64,000 nt of DNA from Embleya scabrispora DSM 41855 (GTDB lineage Bacteria; Actinomycetota; Actinomycetes; Streptomycetales; Streptomycetaceae): assembly GCF_000372745.1 (NCBI RefSeq), contig NZ_KB889697.1, positions 186,001-250,000 on the forward strand, in the 5' to 3' direction. Of the stretch, positions 19,331 through 31,886 are shown piece after piece (position 1 is the first letter of the stretch; the number at the start of each line of letters is the position of its first letter). A program made the position numbers and the translations under genes. The notes beneath the pieces are model-generated. The model did no database searches and was not told the origin of the DNA. It saw only the letters and a list, made by a program, of their open reading frames with translations.

Positions 19331-20212
19331 TCACCGCCTGCGCGCCAGCAGCGAGTGGGCACCGACCGGCAGGCCGGCGAGCGCGCGCGTGGCGATCTCG
19401 GCCTTCTCCCAGTTCGGGAGGGAAAGCCGACCTATCAGCACCTGGCCGGGCTCCTCCAGGATCCTGGTCAGCAGTCGGCGGTAGATACCCGCCATCGCGC
19501 CGGTGCTGGCGGCGCTGCGCCGGTCGAGCAGCGGGAGCAGGGTCAGTCCCCGCTCGAAGAGCTGCTCGGCGCGCGCGCCCTCGAACCGGACCAGGTCCTC
19601 GAACGCCGCGCTCCGGGTGAACCGCCCGTCCTTGTGCCACGCGTCCTCGAGGCCGAACTTGGCCAGGTCCTCGCGGGGCAGGTAGACCCGGCCGTTGTCC
19701 TTGTCCTCCTTGATGTCGCGGAGGATGTTGGTGATCTGCAACGCGATGCCGAGAGTGTCCGCGAGGTCGGGCGCGTGCAGCGAGTCGCGCGAGCCGAAGA
19801 TGCCCAGCGAGAGTCGACCGACGGTGCCCGCGACGCAGCGGCAGTAGACGCGCAGCTCGTCGAAGGTCTCGTACTCGGTCTCGCGCACGTCCATCTCGAC
19901 GCCGTCGATCAGTTCGTCGAGCGCGCCGAGCGGGATCGGGAACCGGGTCGCGGCATCGGCGAGCGCGACCGCGACGGGATCTCGATCCGCGCTCAGGTCC
20001 TTGAGCTGCTTGCGCATCCGGGCCAGCTCCGCGACCTTGCGATCCGCCGGCAGGTCGCCGTCGCCGATGTCGTCGATCTCTCGCGCGAAGGCGTATACGG
20101 CGCTGAGCGCGAGGCGCTTGGGCTCGGGCAGCAGCCTGATGCCGTAGTAGAAGTTGCGTGCCTGATTGCGGGTCAGGCGCTCGCAATACGCATACGAAGC
20201 GTCGACGTCCAT
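19331..20212 (-). CDS. hpnD: Presqualene diphosphate synthase HpnD
   Basis: A 293-residue squalene/phytoene synthase family protein. The first Asp-rich motif is AREIDDIGD (44-51), with FYYGIRLLP preceding it, as in HpnD. The second lies in QITNILRDIKEDKDNGRVYLP. HpnD couples two farnesyl diphosphates into presqualene diphosphate. The ATG at 20212 follows AGGGGAACC. It lies ten bases after the hpnC stop, so hpnC and hpnD are co-translated from one mRNA. The C-terminus GAHSLLARRR is short and basic. Distinction from HpnC is by gene order and by the YYGIRLLP motif. Confidence 0.92.
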   Translation of the reverse strand: MDVDASYAYCERLTRNQARNFYYGIRLLPEPKRLALSAVYAFAREIDDIGDGDLPADRKVAELARMRKQLKDLSADRDPVAVALADAATRFPIPLGALDELIDGVEMDVRETEYETFDELRVYCRCVAGTVGRLSLGIFGSRDSLHAPDLADTLGIALQITNILRDIKEDKDNGRVYLPREDLAKFGLEDAWHKDGRFTRSAAFEDLVRFEGARAEQLFERGLTLLPLLDRRSAASTGAMAGIYRRLLTRILEEPGQVLIGRLSLPNWEKAEIATRALAGLPVGAHSLLARRR

Positions 20213-20222
20213 GGTTCCCCTT

Positions 20223-21122
20223 TTACCTCTTTCGTACCAGTACGCCGGACAGCTCGCGCAGCAGGGTGGCCTTGCCGGGCTTCGCCCGGTGGGCCAGGAC
20301 GTCGAAACCGGCGTCCTTGATCGCGGCAACGGCCGCTCGTCCACCGGCCACGAACCCGGCGATCGCGAGGTACTCGCGCCCTCGCAGTGTCCGCGCGAGC
20401 GGTGCGCCGGAGCGCAGCAACTGCGTCGCGCGGTGTGTTTCGTAGGCGATCAGTCGCCGCACCGCGGGTGCGGCGGCGGGCGCCGCCAGGTCCGCCTCGG
20501 TGACACCGAACCGGTCCATGTCCTGCTTGGGGAGGTAGATCCGGTCGCGTTCGAGGTCCTCGACCACGTCCTGGAGGTGCTCGACGATCTGGAGCGCGGT
20601 GCAGATCTCGTCCGAGCGCGCGATGCGTTCCTCGGTGGCACGGCCGAACACGTGCAGCACGAGCCGGCCGACCGGGTTCGCGGACAGCGCGCAGTAGGCG
20701 GCGAGGTCCTCGTACGTCGCGTAGCGGCGCACCACCTGGTCCTGTCGGTTGGCCTCGATCAGGCCCAGAAACGGTTCGATCGGCAGGTCCAGTTCGCGCA
20801 CGCTCGGTTGCAACCGGCGCAGCACCTCCAGCTCGGGAGTGCCGGTGAACACCCGACGCAAATCACCTTCGAAGGCGTCGAGCTGGGCGACCCGGTCCCC
20901 CTCGGCCTCGTCGCCGATGTCGTCCACCAGGCGGGCGAACCCGTAGACGGCGAGCAGGTGGCGCCGGTGATCGGGGCGCAGGATCCCCATCGCCACGGGA
21001 AAGTTCTCGTGGCCGGCCTGACGCATGACCACGTCCGGGTCGATGACCGCGGCGTCGATGCCCGCCGTGTCGTCGCCGCTCGCGCCGGGCGCGCGCTCGA
21101 GACCGCGGGAATCACTCCCCAT
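20223..21122 (-). CDS. hpnC: Hydroxysqualene synthase HpnC
   Basis: A 299-residue squalene/phytoene synthase family protein. It has GHENFPVAMGILRPDHRRHL before the first Asp-rich motif LVDDIGDEAEGD (66-76), and LQIVEHLQDVVEDLERDRIYLP as the second. The HENFPV motif separates HpnC from HpnD. It converts presqualene diphosphate to hydroxysqualene. The ATG at 21122 follows AGGGAGA. It is the first gene of the seven-gene leftward hopanoid operon, and its promoter should lie in 21123-21682. Confidence 0.92.
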   Translation of the reverse strand: MGSDSRGLERAPGASGDDTAGIDAAVIDPDVVMRQAGHENFPVAMGILRPDHRRHLLAVYGFARLVDDIGDEAEGDRVAQLDAFEGDLRRVFTGTPELEVLRRLQPSVRELDLPIEPFLGLIEANRQDQVVRRYATYEDLAAYCALSANPVGRLVLHVFGRATEERIARSDEICTALQIVEHLQDVVEDLERDRIYLPKQDMDRFGVTEADLAAPAAAPAVRRLIAYETHRATQLLRSGAPLARTLRGREYLAIAGFVAGGRAAVAAIKDAGFDVLAHRAKPGKATLLRELSGVLVRKR

Positions 21123-21682
21123 ATCTCTCCCTGGACCCCCGAAAACATTCCCAACATTACAGTTGGCCAGGAATTCGTGCCGTCCCGGTCGGTCTGACGG
21201 TTCAGCTTGCCCGATCGAAGTCGGATCGATCAAGCACCGAGAACACGCGTGTCATAGCTCACCCGGACTTTTCCTTCGCGAAACACTTTTGTTATCACCA
21301 CGAACCTCTCGCTTGCCTCCGACGATCCCCGTACCACTCAGGACGTCCGGTGTGCCCGGGTGGTTTCCGGGCACCTGAGGAGGTTTCGTCTCCCGATCCC
21401 CTCCCTGCGGAGTAGTGCGGAGTTCCGCCTTCCGCATGAGGAGTACGGCGATTATCCGTGCGCAATGGACCAAGTGGGGTCGATAAAGCGAGTGGCCGGC
21501 GAAATGTTGATCAACTTTCCGGATTTGCGGAATACCCGGAGGATAGCGGTGCGCGCCGACACGCCGCCGTACACCGAATCGATACCCGAATGCGTTGGGC
21601 CGGGTCGACCCCGCTCGTCCGATGGTCCGCGCATCCGGGACGGCTCGGGCGTCGGCCGGCGAATCCTGGTGGAGCCAGAGGT
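21123..21682. other. Intergenic region between ABC importer operon and hopanoid operon
   Basis: 560 bp that should contain the end of the ABC importer transcript and the hopanoid promoter. GTGCCCGG (21352-21359) and CCGGGCAC (21367-21374) form an 8-bp hairpin without a T-run. The stretch 21280-21300 is comparatively AT-rich and could be promoter DNA. No gene is supported. Confidence 0.4.
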
Positions 21683-22663
21683 TCATCGAGGGTGGTGGCA
21701 GGCCACGTCGACCTCGCCGAGCGACTCGATCGGCGGGCGGTGACCGGCGCACACCTCGGTCGCGAACGGGCAGCGCGGGTGGTACGCACAGCCCGGCGGC
21801 GGCGCCGTGACCGAGGGCACCTCGCCGACGATGCCCGCGCCGAGTGCCGCCGCGCTCGCCCGGCCGGTCCGCTGCGGATCGGGCACCGGCACGCTCGCGA
21901 GCAACATCCGCGGATAGGGATGCCGCGGGTTCGACAACACCCGCTCGGCCGGGCCCGACTCGACGATCCGGCCCAGGTACATCACCGCCGCACGATCGGC
22001 GAGCCGCCGGGCGATGTCGATCTCGTGGGTGATCACCACGATCGCCAGGTCGAGCTCGGTGCGCAGCCGCAGCAGCAGGTTGACCACCGTCGCCTTGACG
22101 CTCGCGTCCAGACTCGCGGTCGGCTCGTCCAGGACCAGCACCCGCGGACGCACCAACAGGGCCCGCGCGAGCACCAGGCGGGCGAGTTCGCCGCCGCTGA
22201 CCTCGCCGGGCAACCGGTCCAGGTGATCCGCGCTCAGCCCGACCCGCTCCACCATCGCGAGCACCAGCTCGTCCCGCTCGGCCCGGTCCGCACCCAGTCC
22301 GTGTACGCGCAGCGGCTGATGCAGCGCGTGCCGCAACGTGCGACGCCGGTTGAACGCGGCACGCGGATTTTGCGTGACGAGTTGGACCAGCCGTTGATCG
22401 GCGGGGGTGCGGTCGCCGGACAACACCCGGCCGGCCACCGTGACGGTGCCCGACGTCGCGGTGTCCAGACCCGCGAGCAGCCGCGCGACGGTGGTCTTGC
22501 CGGAGCCCGACTCGCCGACGACGGCAAGCACCTCGCCGGCCGCGACCGCGAACGAGACGTCCTCGGCGGCGGGCACGATCCGCGGCTCGGCCCGACGCCG
22601 GCCGAACGACCCGGGCAGGGCGAACCGGCGGGTCAGCCCGTCCACGCTCAGCAGCGCACTCAC
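21683..22663 (-). CDS. Oligopeptide/dipeptide-type ABC transporter ATPase, DppF-like
   Basis: A 326-residue ATPase. Walker A is GESGSGKTTVARLLAG near 53-68, signature VSGGELARLVLARAL, Walker B VLVLDEPTASLD, and the H-loop VVITHEIDIA. The C-terminal extension CAYHPRCPFATEVC with four cysteines is typical of Dpp/Opp ATPases. The GTG start at 22663 overlaps the previous stop by GTGA. It is the last gene of the operon dppB-dppC-SBP-dppD-dppF. The extension and gene order place it in the peptide/opine/nickel family. The possible link to heme is argued in the findings. Confidence 0.92.
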   Translation of the reverse strand: MSALLSVDGLTRRFALPGSFGRRRAEPRIVPAAEDVSFAVAAGEVLAVVGESGSGKTTVARLLAGLDTATSGTVTVAGRVLSGDRTPADQRLVQLVTQNPRAAFNRRRTLRHALHQPLRVHGLGADRAERDELVLAMVERVGLSADHLDRLPGEVSGGELARLVLARALLVRPRVLVLDEPTASLDASVKATVVNLLLRLRTELDLAIVVITHEIDIARRLADRAAVMYLGRIVESGPAERVLSNPRHPYPRMLLASVPVPDPQRTGRASAAALGAGIVGEVPSVTAPPPGCAYHPRCPFATEVCAGHRPPIESLGEVDVACHHPR

Positions 22664-23634
22664 CGGCCGGCCTCCCGATCCACCCAGTGGCAGCGCACGT
22701 CGGCCGCGCCGTGCCGCACCGCGGCGGGCATGCGCTCGCGGCACACGTCCGCGACGTGCGGGCAGCGCGGCGCGAACGGGCAGCCGGGCAGCAGGTTCGC
22801 GCCCTCCGCGCTGCCCTCGACGGCGCGCAGCGGCCGGTCCGCCGGTGTCGTCGCGGGCATCGCGGCGATCAGCGCCCGGGTGTACGGGTGCCGCGGCGCG
22901 GCGAAGAGCTCGCGCACCGGCGCGGTCTCCACCAGCCGGCCGCCGTACATCACTCCGACCCGGTCGCAGATCGTGGACACCACCGCGAGGTCGTGCGAGA
23001 CGTAGACCATGGCGAGCCCGAGCTTGTCCCGCAGGGTCAACAACAGGCGCAACACCTGCGCCTGCACGGTCGCGTCCAGGGTCGTGGTCGGCTCGTCGGC
23101 GAGCAGCAGCGCGGGCTCGTGCGCGAGCACCGCGATCGCGATCACCACCCGCTGGAGCTGACCGCCGGAGAAGCTGCCGGGCAGGTCGCGCGGCCGGTCC
23201 AGGACCGGGCCCAGGCCGATCCCGATCAGCGTCTCGCGCACCTCGACGTCGTCGAGGCGATCGCCCAAATACCAGCGCAGTTGGCGCAGCACGGGGGTGG
23301 TCGGCGCCAGCGAGGTCATCGGCTGTTGCGGTACCAGGGCCAGCCTGCGTCCGCGCACCCGGCGCAGGTCCCGCTCGCGCATCGCGGCCAGGTCCTCGCC
23401 CTGGAACTCGATGCCGCCCGTGCGCGTCGCGCCGTCCGGCAGCAGGCCCATCAGTGCGGTGCACACGCTGCTCTTGCCGCTGCCGGATTCGCCGACCAGG
23501 CCCAGGATCTCGCCGGGCGCCACGTCGAAGCAGACCCCGCGCACCGCGGGCACCGGCCCGAACGGCCCGCGATAGCCGACGTCGAGGTCGCGCACCCGCA
23601 GCAGCGGCTCCTCGGCCGTACTCGCGTTCGTCAT
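22660..23634 (-). CDS. Oligopeptide/dipeptide-type ABC transporter ATPase, DppD-like
   Basis: A 324-residue ATPase. Walker A is GESGSGKSSVCTALMG, the Q-loop LVPQQPMTSL, signature FSGGQLQRVVIAIAV, Walker B LLLADEPTTTLD and H-loop VYVSHDLAVV. It ends with the Cys-bearing cap LLPGCPFAPRCPHVADVC. The ATG at 23634 shares one base with the stop of the substrate-binding protein gene (TGATG). It pairs with the downstream ATPase to energise the two permeases encoded upstream. Confidence 0.92.
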   Translation of the reverse strand: MTNASTAEEPLLRVRDLDVGYRGPFGPVPAVRGVCFDVAPGEILGLVGESGSGKSSVCTALMGLLPDGATRTGGIEFQGEDLAAMRERDLRRVRGRRLALVPQQPMTSLAPTTPVLRQLRWYLGDRLDDVEVRETLIGIGLGPVLDRPRDLPGSFSGGQLQRVVIAIAVLAHEPALLLADEPTTTLDATVQAQVLRLLLTLRDKLGLAMVYVSHDLAVVSTICDRVGVMYGGRLVETAPVRELFAAPRHPYTRALIAAMPATTPADRPLRAVEGSAEGANLLPGCPFAPRCPHVADVCRERMPAAVRHGAADVRCHWVDREAGR

Positions 23635-25217
23635 CACACGAATCGCAGGTGTTGCGGGTCGAGCCGGCTGATCCGCAACATCGTCGGGTCGAGCGGGGAC
23701 AGTTCGGTGCGCTGGGCCAGCGCGAGCTTGGGATACACCGGCGGGGTGATCACCGCGTCCTCGGCGAGCAGCCGGTCCACCCGGCCGAGCGCGGCCACCC
23801 GTTCGGCGTGGTCCGAGGTCTGCCAGATGGTGTCGATCAGCCGGTCCACCTCGGGGTTGGCGTAGCCGCAGGAGAGCACGTTGGCGGAGCCGGCCGGCGC
23901 GAGCGTCAGGTAGTTCGCCGGGCCCGAGGTGAAGCCGGACGAGAATGTGTTCATCAACATGTCGTAGTCGCGCGACAGCCACTTGTTCGACCACGGCCCA
24001 CCCGCGAGTTGTTCGATGGTGACGTCGAGACCGACCTGCTTCCAGCCCGCCACCAGCACCTGGGCGATGTCGCGGATGCCCTGGTTGGTGCCGATGGTCA
24101 CGGTGAACGAGCGCTTGCTCGTCTTCGCCCGGGCCAACAGCGCGCGGGCCTGGGCCGGGTCGGGTGCGGGCGGGAACGGCTTCAGCGTCGCGTCCCAGCC
24201 GAGTTCGGCGGGCCCGATCGGGCCCTGACCGATGGTGCCCTCGCCGCCGTACACCCGTTGCAGCACGCCCTGGCGGTCCATCGACAGCGCGACCGCCTTG
24301 CGGAAGTCGGGGTCGGCGAACGGCTCCTTCTTCATCATCACGTAGCTGAGCACGTCCAACGGCGCCTCGGTGAGCACGAGCGCGAGCGACTTGTCCTTGC
24401 GGATCGTGTCGAAGGTGGCGAAGGACGGCGCGGTGATCAGGTCGACCTTGCCCTGCCGCAGGCTCAGCACGCGCGTGTTGGCATCGGCGAAGACGGTGTA
24501 CTCCATGCCGGCGAACGCGGGCTTCGCGCCGCCGGAGTACTGGCCGCCGTGGTAGCGGTCGAAGCGGGAGAGGGTGAAGCTCTGGCCGGCCACGAACTTG
24601 TCCAGCCGGTACGGCCCGGTGCCCATCATCGTGTCCTTGCGGGCCACGAAGTCGCGGTGGGTGATCGGCAGGTTGGTCAGGTGCGAGCGCAGCAGGCCGT
24701 ACGGCTTGCTCAGCACGATCCGTACGGTGTGCGCGTCGACCTTCTCGAACCGGGAGAGGTAGCCGAGCATGTACGTGATCCACTCGCTGCCGGCGGCGAG
24801 GTCGAGCATGTGCGCCAGGGTGGCCACCACATCGTCGGCGGTGAACGCACTGCCGTCGTGCCACAGCACGCCCTGCCGCAGTCGGATCGTCCAGGCCAGC
24901 TTGTCCTCGCTGATCTGCGGTTCGCCGTCGGCGAGCAGCGGCACCGAGGCGAGCTTCGCGTCGTAGCCGTACAGGCTCTCCATGATCGGCTCGGCGATCC
25001 ATCGGGTGATCTCCGAGCCGGAGTCGAGCGGGTTCAGGCTGCTCGGCGCGGACGCGACACCGATCCGCAGGATCCCGTCCCGATGCCGATCGGCCACCCG
25101 CTTGCTCCCGGAGGAACTCGAACACGCGGTGAGCACGCCCGTGCCGCCGGCCGCCGCGAGCGCCGCGAGGCCGAGGAAGCCTCGGCGGTTCAGGCCGACT
25201 GTGCGCACCGGGGTCAC
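23634..25217 (-). CDS. ABC transporter substrate-binding lipoprotein, family 5 (DppA/OppA-like)
   Basis: A 527-residue periplasmic-type binding protein anchored as a lipoprotein. The N-terminus LNRRGFLGLAALAA is a twin-arginine signal, followed by the lipobox GVLTACSSSS. The family-5 core includes LAWTIRLRQGVLWHDGSAFTADDVV near 120 and PDFRKAVALSMDR near 300. The GTG start at 25217 overlaps the dppC stop by GTGA. It gives the importer its specificity. Family 5 binds di- and oligopeptides, nickel chelates, opines and, in DppA/HbpA, heme. Co-linearity with the heme oxygenase gene makes heme or a porphyrin-peptide plausible here. Confidence 0.9.
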   Translation of the reverse strand: MTPVRTVGLNRRGFLGLAALAAAGGTGVLTACSSSSGSKRVADRHRDGILRIGVASAPSSLNPLDSGSEITRWIAEPIMESLYGYDAKLASVPLLADGEPQISEDKLAWTIRLRQGVLWHDGSAFTADDVVATLAHMLDLAAGSEWITYMLGYLSRFEKVDAHTVRIVLSKPYGLLRSHLTNLPITHRDFVARKDTMMGTGPYRLDKFVAGQSFTLSRFDRYHGGQYSGGAKPAFAGMEYTVFADANTRVLSLRQGKVDLITAPSFATFDTIRKDKSLALVLTEAPLDVLSYVMMKKEPFADPDFRKAVALSMDRQGVLQRVYGGEGTIGQGPIGPAELGWDATLKPFPPAPDPAQARALLARAKTSKRSFTVTIGTNQGIRDIAQVLVAGWKQVGLDVTIEQLAGGPWSNKWLSRDYDMLMNTFSSGFTSGPANYLTLAPAGSANVLSCGYANPEVDRLIDTIWQTSDHAERVAALGRVDRLLAEDAVITPPVYPKLALAQRTELSPLDPTMLRISRLDPQHLRFV

Positions 25218-26188
25218 TGGGTCTCCTTCGGGGTCGGGATCTGGGTCGGGATCTGGGCCGGGATCTGCCTGGGGGTCTCTTCGGGGATCTCTTCGGGGGT
25301 CTGCTCGGGCGCGCGCCGGCGGACCGGGCCGGTGCCGACGGCGCGCGGCCGGCCGGCCCCGGCCGTTTCACCGAGCAGGTTGAAGCCCAGGATGCCGAGC
25401 ACCAGCACCGTGCCGGGCAGCGTCGCATACCACCAGTCGCCGCCGATGATCTGGCCGCCGGCGTCGGCGATCAGGTTGCCCAGAGTGGCCTGGGGCGGGG
25501 CCACGCCCAGGCCGAGGAAGCTCAGGCCGCCCTCGGCGAAGACCGCGATGGCCATCGCCAGCAGCGCCTGCCCGAGCACCGGCGGCCAGACGTTGACCAG
25601 CACTTCGCGAAAGAGGATCTCCCGGGTGGGCACGCCCAGACCGCGCAGGTTGGTGACGTAGTCCTCGCGCATCTCCACCACCGTGGCGCCGCGGGCGACC
25701 CTGGCGAAGTAGGGCACGAAGCCCAGTCCGATGGCGAACGCGACGCGCGGCCCGTTGCCGACGGTGACCGGACCGAAGTGCATGTCCGCCGTGCCCATCA
25801 GCCCGATCAGGAACATCACGAAAACGAACTGCGGCAGCGCCTGGAGGGTCTCCACCGAGCGCATCAGCACACCGTCGAGACGACCGCCGTGCCGGTATCC
25901 GGCGAGCACCCCCAGCGGCATGCCCACCGCCACCGCGAAGCCGATCGAGGTCACACAGATCCACAGCGAGGTCCAGGCGCCCTCGGCGGTGCGGGCCAGC
26001 AGGTCGCGACCGAGATGGTCGGTGCCGAAGGGGTGCGCGAACGAGGGCGCCTCGGGGCCGGGGGTGACCAGCGCCACGGGGTCGCCGTGCAGCCGGCCGA
26101 CGGTGGCGACCAGGAGGTAGAGCACGACGCAGGCCAGGCCGATCCAGCCGGCCACGCCCAGGCGCGGCAGGCGCGGGCGGGGCCTCAC
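25214..26188 (-). CDS. ABC transporter permease, DppC-like
   Basis: A 324-residue inner-membrane permease. A first membrane segment (WIGLACVVLYLLVATVG) is followed by HPFGTDHLGRDLLARTAEGA, the classic DppC periplasmic loop, and more membrane helices. The EAA-type coupling loop is NLRGLGVPTREILFREVLVN. The GTG start at 26188 overlaps the dppB stop by GTGA. The C-terminal ~45 residues are an unusual charged/Pro tail with repeats such as EEIPEET and QIPAQIPTQIPT. DNA repeats of GGGATCTGGG type lie beneath. The tail is not part of the family core. Confidence 0.9.
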   Translation of the reverse strand: MRPRPRLPRLGVAGWIGLACVVLYLLVATVGRLHGDPVALVTPGPEAPSFAHPFGTDHLGRDLLARTAEGAWTSLWICVTSIGFAVAVGMPLGVLAGYRHGGRLDGVLMRSVETLQALPQFVFVMFLIGLMGTADMHFGPVTVGNGPRVAFAIGLGFVPYFARVARGATVVEMREDYVTNLRGLGVPTREILFREVLVNVWPPVLGQALLAMAIAVFAEGGLSFLGLGVAPPQATLGNLIADAGGQIIGGDWWYATLPGTVLVLGILGFNLLGETAGAGRPRAVGTGPVRRRAPEQTPEEIPEETPRQIPAQIPTQIPTPKETQ

Positions 26189-27168
26189 GCGGCCCGTCCG
26201 AGCTTGTCCCGGGTGACGCCGGCCGCGGTGCGCGGATCCACGAGCGGGTACAGCAGGTCGACCACCAGGTTCAACAGCAGGAAGATCGCCGAGGTCGCCA
26301 CGCAGGCGCCGAGCGCGAGCGGATAGTCCTGGCGCTGGAACGCGGTGACCATCAGTTGGCCGATCCCCGGGATCTGGAACACGTTCTCGATCAACACGGT
26401 GCCCGACAGCAGCCCGCCGATCAGGACGCCGGCCACGGTCAGTGTCGGCACGAGCGCGCCGCGCAGCGCCACCCGACGCAACGTGAGCAGCCGTGAACCG
26501 CCCATCGCACGCGCGAACAGCACATGGTCGGAGGCCATCGCGTCGGCGAGCCCGCCGCGCAACGAGCGGGTGAGCATCGCGAACGTGGCCAGTGCGAGCA
26601 CGATCGCGGGCAACACGAGCACCTTGAGGTTGGTCGCGGGATCCTCGGTGAAGGTGACGAAGCCACCCGCGTTCGGCAAAAGGTCCGGATGACTGTCACC
26701 GACCACCACGAGCGCGATCACGGCCAGCCAGTAGCCGGGCAGGGACATCGCCAACACACTCAGCACACGCGTGCCGTGGTCGACCACGCCGCCGCGGCGC
26801 AGCACCGACCACGCACCGAGCGCGGTGGCCGGGATCACCGCGAACACGGAAGCGAGCAGCCCGAGTTCCAGCGAGATGGGCAGCGCACGGCCGATCTGGT
26901 CGGCGACCGGGGAGCCGTCGTAGAGCGAGGTGCCGAAATCACCGCGCAGCGCGTCGCCGACATAGTCGAGGTACTGGGTCACCAACGGCCGGTCCAGACC
27001 CATCCGGTGTTCGACCGCGGCGCGGGCCACCGGATCGGCCGCGACCTGCGGCGCGAGTTGGTTGACCGGGCTCACCGGGGACGCGTGCAGCAGCAGGAAC
27101 AGGCCGGTCACGACGGCAAACATCACCACGACGACGCCCAGGACGCGCCGCACCAGGTAGTTCGTCAT
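26185..27168 (-). CDS. ABC transporter permease, DppB-like
   Basis: A 327-residue permease with about six membrane helices. The N-terminus MTNYLVRRVLGVVVVMFAVV, the motif HRMGLDRPLVTQYLDYVGDALRGDFGTSL and the C-terminal VFQIPGIGQLMVTAFQRQDYP are diagnostic of DppB/OppB. The coupling loop is MGGSRLLTLRRVALRGAL. The ATG at 27168 follows GGGAGAG. It begins 102 bp after the heme oxygenase stop with no evident terminator between, so the heme oxygenase and the importer may share one transcript. Confidence 0.92.
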   Translation of the reverse strand: MTNYLVRRVLGVVVVMFAVVTGLFLLLHASPVSPVNQLAPQVAADPVARAAVEHRMGLDRPLVTQYLDYVGDALRGDFGTSLYDGSPVADQIGRALPISLELGLLASVFAVIPATALGAWSVLRRGGVVDHGTRVLSVLAMSLPGYWLAVIALVVVGDSHPDLLPNAGGFVTFTEDPATNLKVLVLPAIVLALATFAMLTRSLRGGLADAMASDHVLFARAMGGSRLLTLRRVALRGALVPTLTVAGVLIGGLLSGTVLIENVFQIPGIGQLMVTAFQRQDYPLALGACVATSAIFLLLNLVVDLLYPLVDPRTAAGVTRDKLGRAA

Positions 27169-27270
27169 CACTCTCCCGCCGATCCGATGCGCCATCCATT
27201 GTCGGACGGCGCATCGGACGGTGGGCCCCCGGGGCATGCTGTGCCGGCGGAAGCGGCGTTCCGCGCTGGA

Positions 27271-27960
27271 TCAGGCGCTCTTGCGGAACCGCTCCAGGTC
27301 CCGACCGAGCTCGCGCAGTACGGCGCTGTTGATGTCGTACGCGAACAGCACCTCCTGGATCACCAGTTCCTGCTCCTCGGCGTCCCACGGCGCGTTGTTC
27401 ATCGCCGCGCGGTAGGCGTCCTTCCACGCGGTCAGGTCGCCGAGTCCGTCGAACACGTAGAAGTCGCTGCCTTGGGTGCCCGGCAGGTCGTAGTGCTTGC
27501 GCATCTGCTTGGCGATGAACTGGCCACCGGACATGTCGCCGAGGTAGCGGGTGTAGTGGTGGGCCACGAAGCCGCCGGCCCAGTCGTAGCACTTGTCCCG
27601 CATCCGGTCGGTATAGCGCCGGGTGGCCTCGTTCGCGGGCCACTCCTGCTTCCAGTTCTCGCCGGCCAGGAAAAGCATGTCGGCTTCGAGCACGGCCCGG
27701 CGGTCCAGTCGCGCGTCGGCGAACGGGGCGCCGATCGGGTCGTTGCGCATCGTGTCCGCGGCGTCGTCGAGCACGAGATAGGCCCAGTAGTGCTGGGCCA
27801 CCATCGCGGTGTAGGCGTCCCGGGTCAGTTCGCCCTTCATCAGCGCCTCCAGGAAGCCCGAGCCCTCGGCTTCCTGGTGAAAGGCCCACGAGCGCTTGCG
27901 CAGCGACTCGGCGAAGGTCGGGGTGGCACCGGCGGTTTCGGCGGTCTCGGTCGTGGTCAT
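27271..27960 (-). CDS. hmuO: Biliverdin-producing heme oxygenase (HmuO/HO-1 type)
   Basis: A 229-residue cytosolic enzyme that opens heme to biliverdin, CO and Fe2+. The proximal heme-ligand His is in SWAFHQEAEGSGF at residue 28. The distal-helix motif is HHYTRYLGDMSGGQFIAK near 143-160, with the conserved GDxSGGQ kink. Length is normal. The ATG at 27960 follows AGGGGAAACC. It is divergent from the iron-box-controlled surface protein genes and lies upstream of the Dpp-type importer on the same strand. The expected role is release of iron from imported heme. Confidence 0.95.
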   Translation of the reverse strand: MTTTETAETAGATPTFAESLRKRSWAFHQEAEGSGFLEALMKGELTRDAYTAMVAQHYWAYLVLDDAADTMRNDPIGAPFADARLDRRAVLEADMLFLAGENWKQEWPANEATRRYTDRMRDKCYDWAGGFVAHHYTRYLGDMSGGQFIAKQMRKHYDLPGTQGSDFYVFDGLGDLTAWKDAYRAAMNNAPWDAEEQELVIQEVLFAYDINSAVLRELGRDLERFRKSA

Positions 27961-28322: not shown

Positions 28323-28341
28323 TTAGGATAGCCTCACCTCC
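28323..28341. promoter_or_regulatory. DmdR/IdeR-type iron box
   Basis: TTAGGATAGCCTCACCT agrees closely with the actinobacterial iron box TTAGGTTAGGCTCACCTAA bound by DmdR1/IdeR with Fe2+. It lies 45 bp before the GTG of the first surface protein gene, where binding would repress transcription in iron-replete cells. Confidence 0.8.
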
Positions 28342-28385: not shown

Positions 28386-29084
28386 GTGAGCCCTGCCCGC
28401 ACCGGACGCCTCGGCGGCGCCGTCGCCGCCGTCGCGACGCTCCTCCTCGCCTGGTCGCTCGGCGGCCCGGCGAGTCCCGCGCACGCGACCGGTACCCCGG
28501 CAGCGGGCAAAGCCACCCTGACCGCGGAGAAGACCACCGGACTGGACCCGGCGGGCGACGTGGTCAAGCTGGTCGGCAAGGGCTTCACGCCGGGCGTCCG
28601 GCTGTTCATCCTGCCGTGCGATCCCGCCCAGGGCGCGGGCCGCGCATGCGACATGGGCTCGTTCTCCGGTCCCACCGAGGCGGACGCGACCGGCTCGTTC
28701 GGCACGGACGTCAAGGTCGCCGCAAAGTTCGGCGCCGTCGACTGCCTCAAGACCCGATGCGCCATCGCCACGTCCAACTCGGCCAACGGCAAGGACCGCA
28801 CGCAGGAGGTCTACCTGCCGATCGGCTTCCGGGGCGAGGACCCGGGCCTGCCGGCGAGCCCGCCGCCGGCCACCGCCGCGCCCCAGGCCGGGGCGCCCGG
28901 CGCCGGCGCGCCGAAGACGTCGGCCGCCCCGCCCGCAGCGGCGCCGAGCACCGCTCCCACGAAGTCCGCGGCCGAGGACGAGGACGACGGCAAGGGCGGC
29001 CTGATCATCGGGCTGATCGCCGCCGTCGTGGTGGTCCTGGTGGTCGTCGGCGTCGTCGTCAAGCGCCGTCGCCCGAGCGCCTGA
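28386..29084 (+). CDS. Membrane-anchored neocarzinostatin-fold surface protein
   Basis: A 232-residue exported protein of the heme/iron locus. A signal peptide (about 1-35, ending PAHA) precedes a domain of about 110 residues resembling the neocarzinostatin/macromomycin Ig-like fold: TTGLDPAGDVVKLVGKGF, then a C-terminal VDCLKTRCAIATSNSANG. Its cysteines (78, 88, 120, 125) repeat the 10- and 5-residue spacing of the two disulfides of neocarzinostatin. A Pro/Ala linker leads to a transmembrane helix (about 207-227) and KRRR. The GTG at 28386 follows GAGGAAA. It lies behind the iron box and is first of three co-directional genes. It could be a surface receptor for heme or another iron compound. 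Ligand binding is inference. Confidence 0.75.
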   Translation: MSPARTGRLGGAVAAVATLLLAWSLGGPASPAHATGTPAAGKATLTAEKTTGLDPAGDVVKLVGKGFTPGVRLFILPCDPAQGAGRACDMGSFSGPTEADATGSFGTDVKVAAKFGAVDCLKTRCAIATSNSANGKDRTQEVYLPIGFRGEDPGLPASPPPATAAPQAGAPGAGAPKTSAAPPAAAPSTAPTKSAAEDEDDGKGGLIIGLIAAVVVVLVVVGVVVKRRRPSA

Positions 29085-29166
29085 CCCGCGGCTCCTCGCC
29101 CTGTCGACCTCCCATCCAACGAGCCACCGAGCCGACCGGCTCGTCCTCAACCCCCGGAGACCGCAC

Positions 29167-29778
29167 ATGCGCACATCCCGTACCGCCGCCGCCGTTGCCG
29201 CCACCGCGATCGCCGGCCTCGGCGTACTCGCCGCCTCTCCCGCGTCGGCCGCGGACGCGCCGACGATCTCCCTGTCCAAGGCGACCGGCATCGCCGTCGG
29301 CGGCGAGGAGATCACCGTCACCGGCAAGAACTTCAAGCCGGGCAAGGGCGTGTACATCGCGCAGACCGTGGCCAAGCCGGCCGGCGGCGTGCCGACCCAG
29401 TACGGCAACGCCGGCTACGTCCCGCAGGTCGGTCCGGACGGCACCTTCTCGGTCAAGATCAAGCCCGCGCAGAGCTTCGAGGGCAAGGACAAGAAGAAGG
29501 TCGACTGCGCCGCCACCGCGTGCTTCGTGGCGACCTTCAACGACCACACCGACATCGCCAACCGCGATCAGGACGTGTGGGTCCCGGTGACCTTCGGCAC
29601 CGCCGCGCCGGCCGCCGCCACACCGCAGACCGGTGCCACCACCGAGGCCGGCGACCCGAAGCTGCCCAAGACCGGCTCGTCGAGCACGCAGCTCGCCTAC
29701 GTGGGTGCGGGCATGCTGGTGGTCGGCGTGGGCGCGGTGGCCGCGTCCCGTCGGCGCCGCGACTCCGCGCGCGCCTGA
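29167..29778 (+). CDS. LPKTG-anchored neocarzinostatin-fold surface protein
   Basis: A 203-residue protein. The signal peptide (1-29, ASPASAAD) is followed by a domain like that of its upstream neighbour (ATGIAVGGEEITVTGKNF; VDCAATACFVATFNDHTD). It keeps only the second cysteine pair (114 and 119). A Pro/Thr/Ala linker leads to a sortase signal: LPKTG at 166-170, a hydrophobic helix and RRRR. It is therefore expected to be covalently attached to peptidoglycan. The ATG follows GGAGACC. Together with the membrane-anchored paralogue it would form a wall-to-membrane relay, as the HtaA/HmuT heme proteins do in corynebacteria. That analogy is inference; HtaA motifs are not present. Confidence 0.78.
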   Translation: MRTSRTAAAVAATAIAGLGVLAASPASAADAPTISLSKATGIAVGGEEITVTGKNFKPGKGVYIAQTVAKPAGGVPTQYGNAGYVPQVGPDGTFSVKIKPAQSFEGKDKKKVDCAATACFVATFNDHTDIANRDQDVWVPVTFGTAAPAAATPQTGATTEAGDPKLPKTGSSSTQLAYVGAGMLVVGVGAVAASRRRRDSARA

Positions 29779-29819: not shown

Positions 29820-30143
29820 ATGAGCGAGGCGACCGTCAACCCGTTCGGAGCGGACGCGATCACCGCGGTCTGCAAGCACATGAACGACGACCACCCCGAG
29901 GACTGCCTGTTGATCTCGCGTGGTCTCGGCGGGCAGCCGGACGCCACCTCGGCCACCATGACCGGCCTGGACGGCGACGCGGCGTACTACTCGGCGATCG
30001 TGGCCGGGCAGCCGATCGCGGTACGGGTGCCGTGGAGCCGCTCGATCACCGAGCGTCGGGACGTGCGGATCGAGGTCGTCACGCAGTACAACGAGGCGTG
30101 CAAGGCACTGGGGCTGCCGGCCCGCGGCGAGGGCGAGCACTGA
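29820..30143 (+). CDS. DUF2470 domain protein (heme-utilisation associated)
   Basis: A 107-residue protein consisting of one DUF2470 domain: NPFGADAITAVCKHMNDDHPEDCL at the N-terminus is the signature (HxxxDHxxD type), followed by GLDGDAAYY and an IRVPWSR-like strand VRVPWSRSITER. The same domain forms the C-terminal part of HugZ/HutZ heme-degrading proteins, where the conserved His binds heme. The ATG at 29820 follows GGAGGCG. It is the third gene of the iron-box transcript and is followed by two strong hairpins. A role in binding heme, or handing it to the heme oxygenase encoded divergently, fits but is unproven. Confidence 0.82.
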   Translation: MSEATVNPFGADAITAVCKHMNDDHPEDCLLISRGLGGQPDATSATMTGLDGDAAYYSAIVAGQPIAVRVPWSRSITERRDVRIEVVTQYNEACKALGLPARGEGEH

Positions 30144-30278: not shown

Positions 30279-30419
30279 GCATCGGGTGAGAGAGGCGCTG
30301 AGGGGGCGCACCGGCGCCGGAAAAACCTGCCGGCTACACCTGTACAAAAAGATATAGTGAGCTTTGCTCAGCATAAGGCTCCGCCCACCCACTTCCCCAA
30401 AGCGAAGGCCCTCTGCCGT

Positions 30420-31886
30420 ATGCCGCCCATATCCGCGTCCCGCCTCAGTCAGAAGGTCGTGGTCGGCGCCGTCTTCGTCGCCGCGATGTTCGTCAACATC
30501 CTCGACATCACCATCATCAACGTCGCGCTCCCCGCGATCGGCAAGGACCTCGGCGCGTCGCAGGCGAGCCTGGCCACGGTCGCGGTGGGCTACCTGGTCA
30601 GCCTCGCGGTGTTCATTCCCGCGTCCGGCTGGCTCGGCGACCGCTTCGGCACCAAGCGGATCTTCCTGATCGCACTGGCCCTGTTCACCGGCGCGTCCGC
30701 GCTGTGCGGACTGGCGCAGAACATCGACCAACTGGTGCTCTTCCGGATCCTGCAGGGCGCCGGCGGCGGCATGCTGACGCCGGTCGGCATGGCGATGATG
30801 TTCCGGGTCTTCCCGCCCGAGGAGCGGGTGCGCGCGTCCCGCATCCTGATGGTCCCCACCGCACTGGCCCCCGCCCTCGGTCCGGTGCTCGGCGGCCTGC
30901 TCGTGGACAAGGCGTCCTGGCACTGGGTCTTCTACATCAACCTGCCGGTCGGGGTGGCCGCGTTCGTGTTCGGCCTGGTCTTCCTGGAGGAGTACGAGAA
31001 CCCCAAGGCGGGTCGCTTCGACCTGCCCGGTTTCGTCCTGTCCGGAGCCGGCTTCGCACTGCTGATGTACGCACTGAGCGAGGGCGCGACCAAGGGTTGG
31101 GGCTCGCCGATCATCCTGTCCACCGGAATCGCCGGACTGATCCTGTGCATCGCGATGGTCTTCGTCGAGCTGCGGGTCAAGGAGCCGATGCTGCACCTGC
31201 GGCTGCTCCGCGACCGGCTGTTCGTCAGCACCAACGTGGTGTCGATGGTCAACTCCGCCGCGTTCCTGGGCGTGCTGTACGTCTTCCCGCTGATGCAGCA
31301 GCAGGCATTCGGCAAGTCGGCCCTGGAGACCGGCCTGCTCACCTTCCCGGAGGCGTTCGGTGTGGTGATCGCCACCCAGTGGGTCTCGCGCCTGTACCCG
31401 GTGGTCGGACCGCGCCGGCTGATGGCGGGCGGCCTGCTCGGCATCGGCGCGTGCGCGGCGCTGCTCGCCCTGGTCGACGGCGATACCGCGCCCGCGCTGA
31501 TCGTGGTGCTGATGTTCTGCACCGGCGCCTCGATGGCGCACGTGATGATCCCGATGCAGGCGGCCGCGTTCGCGCGGACCGCGCCTGCCGACAACGGCCG
31601 CGCCTCGACCATCTTCAACGTGCAGCGCCAGCTCGGCTCGGCCCTGGGCGTCGCGCTCCTGGCGAGCGTGCTCGCGGGGATCGGCACGATGACGACCCGC
31701 TCCGGCGGCGCCCCGAGCCCGAACCTGCACGCGTACCACGTGGCCTTCCTGGTCGCCGCCGGCCTCGCGGTCCTGGGCGCGATCGCCGCCCTGACCATCC
31801 GCGACGCGGACGCCGCCTCCACCCTCCGCAGGAAGACGGAGGTCGTCCCCGCCCCCGAGCCGGCCACGGAGAACGCCACGGTCTGA
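30420..31886 (+). CDS. MFS transporter, DHA2 (EmrB/QacA) family
   Basis: A 488-residue drug:proton antiporter-type membrane protein with about 14 helices. Motif A is GWLGDRFGTKR near 75, motif D1 NILDITIINVALPAIG near 30, and motif C PALGPVLGGLL near 150. The ATG at 30420 (MPPISASRL) is preferred. An earlier in-frame GTG at 30357 lies directly after the AT-rich stretch AAAAAGATATA, which looks like a promoter, so that start would be leaderless. It follows the strong terminator of the heme locus and is read as a separate unit. Export substrate unknown. Confidence 0.88.
   Translation: MPPISASRLSQKVVVGAVFVAAMFVNILDITIINVALPAIGKDLGASQASLATVAVGYLVSLAVFIPASGWLGDRFGTKRIFLIALALFTGASALCGLAQNIDQLVLFRILQGAGGGMLTPVGMAMMFRVFPPEERVRASRILMVPTALAPALGPVLGGLLVDKASWHWVFYINLPVGVAAFVFGLVFLEEYENPKAGRFDLPGFVLSGAGFALLMYALSEGATKGWGSPIILSTGIAGLILCIAMVFVELRVKEPMLHLRLLRDRLFVSTNVVSMVNSAAFLGVLYVFPLMQQQAFGKSALETGLLTFPEAFGVVIATQWVSRLYPVVGPRRLMAGGLLGIGACAALLALVDGDTAPALIVVLMFCTGASMAHVMIPMQAAAFARTAPADNGRASTIFNVQRQLGSALGVALLASVLAGIGTMTTRSGGAPSPNLHAYHVAFLVAAGLAVLGAIAALTIRDADAASTLRRKTEVVPAPEPATENATV

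Follow-up and report, generated by a model that had tools for sequence, protein, structure and literature searches.

Heme import by actinobacteria is usually described in terms of surface proteins with HtaA/CR domains together with the HmuTUV transporter, and the staphylococcal Isd system combines sortase-anchored beta-sandwich (NEAT) receptors with an ABC importer and a heme oxygenase. As NEAT domains are described, they would belong to a different domain family from the one discussed here, and the likeness would be one of working plan. The HtaA/HtaB/ChtA receptors found with HmuTUV in Corynebacterium, Dietzia and other Streptomycetaceae are likewise comparable, being iron-boxed surface proteins encoded beside HmuTUV and heme oxygenase. 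The accessible text of PMC12494546 describes the CR domain as a beta-sandwich in which hemin is bound through an axial tyrosine; HtaA is described both there and in PMC8027190, and PMC6868719 reports a Leucobacter with hmuTUV and without htaABC. A second comparison is with the apoproteins of the enediyne antibiotics neocarzinostatin, macromomycin, C-1027 and actinoxanthin (PF00960, NF040680); seven of the predicted nine-membered enediyne gene clusters carry apoprotein genes, according to the accessible part of PMC5181780. The literature searched contains no link of the neocarzinostatin fold to heme uptake, which the wider literature may mention, and nothing that treats neocarzinostatin together with HtaA. 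Neocarzinostatin with heme, iron and Streptomyces surfaces through a reference entry in the available text of PMC7411666, and the available text of PMC13251363 describes a neocarzinostatin-like domain in CwpG, a sortase-dependent protein of Actinoplanes, with the word heme absent from it.

The locus described here lies in a 64-kb stretch of the Embleya scabrispora DSM 41855 genome (the window), and its features are listed in Table 1. Two genes, here called NCS1 and NCS2, occur in tandem where the first-pass annotation placed them, followed by a DUF2470 gene and an MFS transporter gene, and the spacing of the first three looks like that of an operon. The opposite strand carries a heme oxygenase gene together with an Opp/Dpp/Nik-type ABC importer encoded by five genes whose ends touch or overlap. 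All 12 of the NCBIfam matches of the family-5 binding protein fall under their cut-offs, and the DUF2470 protein is only weakly like the HugZ heme oxygenase (TIGR04109, 18.6 bits against a cut-off of 240) and is therefore a non-member. The MFS transporter is a doubtful member of the same system. Further left in the window, two adjacent leftwards-oriented open reading frames (19331–21233) read as squalene/phytoene synthase-like members of a hopanoid cluster.

Table 1. Features of the NCS locus; coordinates are window positions.
Feature	Coordinates	Strand	Remarks
ABC ATPase 2	21683..22669	-	open frame; named by reading
ABC ATPase 1	22660..23634	-	ORF position; named by reading
Extracellular solute-binding protein family 5	23634..25217	-	PF00496, 242.7 bits
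Opp/Dpp/Nik-type ABC permease 2	25214..26188	-	PF00528
Opp/Dpp/Nik-type ABC permease 1	26185..27237	-	PF00528, PF19300
Heme oxygenase	27271..27960	-	divergent; PF01126, 169.1 bits
Putative DtxR/IdeR-like iron box	28323..28341	+	upstream of NCS1; 15/19 to the consensus used for scoring
NCS1	28386..29084	+	232 aa; signal peptide (by reading), domain about residues 41-150, Pro/Ala-rich linker, tail
NCS1 C-terminus			hydrophobic tail and KRRRPSA, read from sequence
NCS2	29167..29778	+	203 aa; signal peptide (by reading), domain about residues 31-145, LPKTG
NCS2 motif within domain			FNDHT...RDQD
DUF2470 protein	29820..30143	+	PF10615, 64.2 bits
MFS transporter	30357..31886	+	PF07690; after DUF2470 in conserved order in relatives

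That NCS1 and NCS2 have the neocarzinostatin fold, as the first-pass annotation had proposed, is supported by profile scores and by the predicted structures. Both exceed the PF00960 cut-off of 25 (NCS1 40.4 bits, E 3.1e-10; NCS2 36.2 bits, E 6.5e-9), and against single solved sequences NCS1 gives a weak match to neocarzinostatin (1nco, E 0.0065) while NCS2 matches no chromoprotein. AlphaFold2 models, which are predictions built from ten-row alignments of window and related-locus sequences, have a pLDDT of 83.6 and pTM of 0.76 for NCS1, and 84.1 and 0.79 for NCS2. All Foldseek matches at E 0.001 or better are to chromoproteins or engineered neocarzinostatin (9/9 for NCS1, 11/11 for NCS2), and VIA-align superimposes both models on 1nco (NCS1 Z 13.1, rmsd 1.8, 103 residues aligned; NCS2 Z 14.8, rmsd 1.9, 105 aligned), with the first unrelated structures at Z 8.5 and 8.0, respectively, and the NMR model of kedarcidin at only 6.5 and 6.9. 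The expected seven strands are seen in the NCS1 model; the NCS2 model departs from that count, with nine strand elements of at least three residues and one short helix, although both match the family structurally. Because the cysteines of NCS1 lie at positions 78, 88, 120 and 125, and the only two of NCS2 are Cys114 and Cys119, the earlier observations of neocarzinostatin-like spacings of 10 and 5 residues, and of loss of the first pair from NCS2, are correct. NCS1 Cys78 and Cys88 align opposite Cys37 and Cys47 of 1nco, as counted on the printed alignment, and the VDC...C pair is present in NCS1, NCS2 and the enediyne apoproteins.

A further correspondence concerns a conserved aromatic residue. 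Profile A5 finds solved neocarzinostatin (1nco, 9e-9), C-1027 (5e-5), and kedarcidin and actinoxanthin (0.03), and its alignment puts NCS2 Tyr63 opposite neocarzinostatin residue 33. The testosterone-binding variant 2cbt differs from wild type at residues 33, 35, 37, 45, 47, 52, 78, 94, 96 and 98 (counted on printed rows), and the conserved aromatic residue is therefore at a site altered by engineers for a change of ligand. NCS1 has Phe74 at this position, counting through Cys78. Homology to the chromoproteins is real, and routine Pfam annotation would already name the family; the finding proper is that the domain sits among heme genes, does so repeatedly in different parts of the phylum, and has a conserved motif.

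NCS1 and NCS2 differ from the enediyne apoproteins in being anchored, in having a putative iron box and heme genes nearby, in scoring below the 86-bit cut-off of the enediyne chromoprotein equivalog model NF040680 (39.5 bits for NCS1, 56.6 for NCS2) and, for NCS2, in lacking the first cysteine pair. The anchors claimed for both proteins hold up on inspection. The NCS2 tail combines its LPKTG with a hydrophobic stretch and RRRR, exceeds the cut-offs of PF00746 (25.5 bits) and TIGR01167, and so qualifies as a sortase substrate; NCS1 has no LPXTG and instead has a membrane-type tail, as its orthologues are likewise considered to have. Neither protein matches PF04213 (HtaA/CR) at E values up to 1, and the profile separates them from CR domains. 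The structures listed by VIA-align include no CR fold, which carries no weight either way.

PF00960 is present in 20 of 61 relatives, counting the genome itself. NCS1 and NCS2 are adjacent in all four genomes of the window's genus (G000–G003), and three genomes of a sister genus have a single NCS1-type gene at the equivalent place. The heme oxygenase, DUF2470, MFS and both permease genes flank NCS1 (with or without NCS2) in all seven, as does the family-5 binding protein in six, the 18-kb contig of G003 having no match to it or to the ATPases. A genome of another family (G260, locus L131) likewise combines an NCS1-type gene with DUF2470, heme oxygenase and an Opp/Dpp-type importer of the same kind. 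An HtaA-HmuTUV-heme oxygenase arrangement is seen instead in six genomes of other Streptomycetaceae genera, both HtaA and NCS are missing from another 13 heme oxygenase loci, and no HtaA is found at the NCS locus in the window's own genus. A separate HmuTUV in the same genome (contig C101; L183 6178–9453) lies in a 16-kb stretch with no HtaA or NCS match, and the only HtaA match in the genome is a weak one (C117, 30.8 bits). We considered the idea that in this genus NCS proteins have fully replaced HtaA as well as HmuTUV, and rejected it in view of the HmuTUV at C101. Because an NCS1-like paralogue at C58 (L042) has no heme gene in its region, heme genes cannot be predicted from resemblance to NCS1 by itself. 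The genome contains a second iron-boxed cluster (16/19) at L114 (G000:C187, 5982–10205), with no heme gene in the stretch; it encodes NCS domains in tandem that end in a WxL wall-binding part, a protein resembling WxL-interacting proteins, and a further NCS protein, which has LPLTG. A search of viral contigs for NCS2 yielded no match.

More widely, a profile of the NCS2 domain (A3) has matches in 82 of 394 genomes of the class; an earlier scan of genome contigs gave six loci only. Two genomes were treated apart, G000 because its best match is the window itself (its further cluster, L114, being heme-less) and G025 because its best match is an HtaA fusion, and 16 without a listed best place were not taken in. 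One region per genome was fetched for the remaining 64, and one (L171) lacks the domain by the domain model, leaving 63, many of them from closely related genomes. At least one of HmuT, HmuU, HmuV, heme oxygenase, DUF2470 or HtaA is present in 53 of these 63 regions (HmuT with HmuU in 47, HmuV in 36, HtaA in 28, heme oxygenase in 23 and DUF2470 in 15), with all models except that of HtaA seeded from Streptomyces or the window and trained partly on the same loci. Because HmuT and HmuU matches can include siderophore importers, the safer figure is the 33 regions with heme oxygenase, DUF2470 or HtaA, the other 20 positives having Hmu genes alone. By chance, judging from ten HmuU-like matches in the 11.39-Mb genome of the window, an HmuU-like gene would be expected in about 1% of 13-kb regions. 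The ten regions with no heme gene are L122, L126, L134–L137, L144, L145, L152 and L178, and L135 holds a gene above the enediyne-carrier cut-off (G325, 156 bits). As a comparison set, we took 12 PF00960 regions of relatives outside the island, of which L044 and L048 lack the domain by the model; nine of the other ten, the L042 paralogue among them, have no heme genes, and one (L046) has HtaA fused to the domain.

The association extends to single proteins and beyond the class. HtaA and NCS domains are joined in proteins of Streptomyces cyaneofuscatus NRRL B-2570, S. microflavus JCM 4496 and S. uncialis DCA2648, with further fusions in L115–L119, L121, L123, L125, L130 and L133. Fusion to HtaA is thus common for NCS domains, which elsewhere often occupy its place. 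In a phylum sample the rate is low, with 10 of 396 genomes matching profile A6 at E 1e-10; at five out-of-class loci (L208–L212) HmuTUV is adjacent in all five and heme oxygenase is present in four. The heme setting of the NCS genes is supported by their neighbors in relatives, in the class sample and at the out-of-class loci, and because related domains recur beside heme-import genes in many actinobacteria, the fold is probably a little-noticed part of actinobacterial iron uptake from heme.

Several individual loci deserve mention. One open reading frame (L123, 7645–15162) encodes 2506 residues that comprise three HtaA domains, seven domains of NCS type and a terminal LPDTG, and it adjoins HmuTUV and heme oxygenase genes. 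At a second locus in G025 (L213), two domains are accompanied by an iron box scoring 16/19 and by no heme gene. In family f27, whose genomes are very small (1.3–1.8 Mb), NCS-domain genes lie beside HmuT/HmuU in 13 of 14 regions (L129, L138, L140, L143, L153, L155, L160, L165, L169, L170, L172, L173 and L177, the exception being L144), a pattern fitting reliance on outside heme. Two family f6 loci (L122 6306–7694 and L126 5571–6935) encode two-domain NCS proteins with hydrophobic tails and no heme genes in the stretch, and these we take to be another use of the fold.

The first-pass annotation also claimed an iron-controlled operon; a putative DtxR/IdeR-like box upstream of NCS1, kept in relatives, agrees with the iron control, while the operon is judged from spacing. 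The 19-letter consensus used for scoring is the one we take to be that of DtxR/IdeR, and a strict search with it at up to three mismatches found no site in the window. The site at 28323 scores 15/19, the best in the 64 kb, with a runner-up of 13 and no score above 13 in eight shuffles; a pattern fitted to this site proves nothing by its zero mismatches, and the 15/19 score is used instead. Five of six orthologous same- and sister-genus loci score 15/19 (L032, L033, L034, L035 and L041; L038 scores 13), and L131 scores 11. Among the regions with both heme genes and NCS domains, 29 of 53 have a box of at least 15/19, as compared with 0/53 in each of five shuffles; a box of this score is also present in two of the ten NCS regions without heme genes, one of nine PF00960 comparison regions, two of 13 plain heme oxygenase loci and 6/6 HtaA loci. 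At L208–L212 the top forward-strand score is 14, in one locus.

A D-H-T/L motif is present in 75 of 225 domain hits and is distributed unevenly: it occurs in 47 of the 53 regions with heme genes, in two of the ten without (L136 and L152), and in none of the ten comparison regions. When one top-scoring domain per region is taken from the 63 regions, blind to the motif, six positions are well kept (Tyr 55, Trp 52, Asp 52, His 54, Arg 59 and Asp 57). In 56 domains picked by their D-H pattern, NCS2 orthologues included, four more residues never vary (Tyr, Pro, Arg and a second Asp), mostly along with a C-C pair and a W-I-S-S-N-P-P-x-Y loop; invariance of the D and H is here by choice, as it is in the 21 rows of A6. 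Profile A6 aligns with A5 (hhalign 99.9%, E 3.5e-36) and with A1 (98.9%, 1e-17), and directly against neocarzinostatin it has no significant match (2cbt, E 0.63). Because A6 alone misses neocarzinostatin, the motif type is tied to the drug carriers via NCS2-like domains. Pfam under-scores proteins of this type, five of six scanned being below the PF00960 cut-off or without a match (e.g. L120 at 20.5 bits and L124 with none; L131 is over).

The two window proteins stand differently towards this motif. NCS2 Tyr63 and D126-H127-T128 line up with residues conserved in the heme-locus domains, and of the features of the motif (RADHT) subfamily NCS2 has the Tyr, DHT, R and D and lacks the C-C pair and WISSNPPxY loop; in NCS1 the C-C pair and R are present, and the DHT and loop are missing. 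On these alignments both are sisters of the subfamily rather than members. The only Tyr, internal Met and His of NCS1 are Tyr143, Met90 and His33, the last lying in the signal peptide, and in a nine-row alignment (seven orthologues, two paralogues) none of the His, Tyr or Met positions is kept throughout, so that ordinary axial heme ligation by NCS1 is unsupported, and we have dropped the idea that every copy binds heme through an axial ligand. NCS1 may bind without an axial ligand, bind something else, or be a partner protein. In our judgement, pocket binding of heme by NCS2 falls somewhat short of an even chance, and by NCS1 it is doubtful.

Our preferred reading, with a probability of about 0.72, is that the island serves heme acquisition under iron repression, with the NCS-fold domains as surface heme-handling modules that act as receptor or relay. 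At low iron, to judge from the box, DtxR/IdeR would leave its site and NCS1, NCS2 and the DUF2470 protein would be made; the sequence signals suggest that sortase would then tie NCS2 to the wall and that NCS1 would be held in the membrane. From gene order, NCS1 and NCS2 would pick up heme or a heme carrier at the cell surface and hand it on to a solute-binding protein. The recipient here would be either the family-5 binding protein of the Opp/Dpp-type importer or the separately located HmuTUV, and in many other actinobacteria presumably the neighboring HmuT; heme oxygenase would afterwards liberate the iron. NCS2-type domains would probably grip heme via the conserved Tyr/His, and NCS1 would more likely bind without a classical axial ligand or serve as a docking partner. 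Several observations count against a heme module: the lack of a ligand in NCS1, the 10/63 heme-less regions (two with D-H-T), the restriction of D-H-T/L to 75/225 domains, the HmuTUV of the same genome with neither NCS nor HtaA, the kinship among genomes, the 20/53 positives with Hmu genes only, the low phylum rate, and long tandem arrays (L123), as in structural spacers.

The last of these points to an alternative that we consider rather unlikely, in which the domain, as an immunoglobulin-like spacer or a module for adhesion, presents the true heme receptors and has no ligand of its own. The tandem copies with HtaA in the 2506-residue frame of L123, and the 150 of 225 domain copies with no D-H-T/L, are what it would predict, but it sits poorly with single-domain proteins adjoining HmuT (e.g. 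L120 and L132), with retention of the Tyr, His, Arg and Asp in 54–59 of the 63 best domains, which is unlike a spacer, and with the window's genus having no HtaA at the NCS locus to present. Equally unlikely, in our view, is that the ligand is a different iron compound (a siderophore, an opine or histidine-nickel metallophore, or free porphyrin) taken up through the Opp/Nik-type importer, with the heme oxygenase incidental. The importer class, whose models cover nickel, opine and peptide carriers, would suit this, as would the lack of an axial ligand candidate in NCS1 and the presence of HmuTUV elsewhere in the genome; against it, heme oxygenase and DUF2470 are kept adjacent in two genera and another family, and NCS2 has relatives that are joined to HtaA and lie beside HmuTUV.

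An enediyne-type drug carrier or self-resistance role for NCS1 and NCS2, already disfavored, is very improbable: the fold and Pfam family are shared, but both proteins score below the chromoprotein cut-off, have membrane and wall anchors, and fall outside the chromoprotein group in a tree. A scan of the genome for PF08012, which we take to be an enediyne marker, also gave zero matches, in a search with no match anywhere and no positive control. The tree contains 82 domains of at least 35 bits from selected loci and is unrooted, with deep forks unsettled and 38 of its 79 branches open; within it, the 12 genes above the enediyne cut-off form one group (SH-aLRT 85), the motif type groups with two other rows (SH-aLRT 99), and the L131 gene joins the window NCS1 type (SH-aLRT 81).

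Genes above the enediyne chromoprotein cut-off are found in 12 of 394 Streptomycetaceae genomes. Because the enediyne carriers are rare and form one narrow group, and heme-locus domains reach other classes, the reuse of a drug pocket for an iron ligand proposed in the first-pass annotation may run the other way round, from heme-locus domains to drug carriers. A bolder version, in which the neocarzinostatin fold binds heme throughout the phylum as a module of heme uptake, using a Tyr on the drug-pocket strand and the His of D-H-T, and the enediyne carriers are a late offshoot whose heme pocket was converted to hold a drug, we regard as speculative and probably too strong. If the preferred heme-acquisition reading is true, a second recurrent surface domain would amount to a type of heme receptor or relay that has gone unrecognised, found beside heme genes even in families with very small genomes, and the heme-locus domains would give a testable origin for the neocarzinostatin and C-1027 carriers.

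A further relative is ThiX of the Corynebacterium glutamicum bcc-aa3 supercomplex (PDB 7qhm_M), which is matched by A6 (E 5e-10, with D-H-T) and by A5 (5e-5), and which differs from NCS1 and NCS2 in being a lipoprotein of a respiratory complex. The accessible text of PMC8795186 gives its soluble domain as unresolved and its activity as unknown. On these profile matches ThiX may be a heme-linked neocarzinostatin-fold lipoprotein, which would provide a first functional lead for this component of the corynebacterial respiratory supercomplex.
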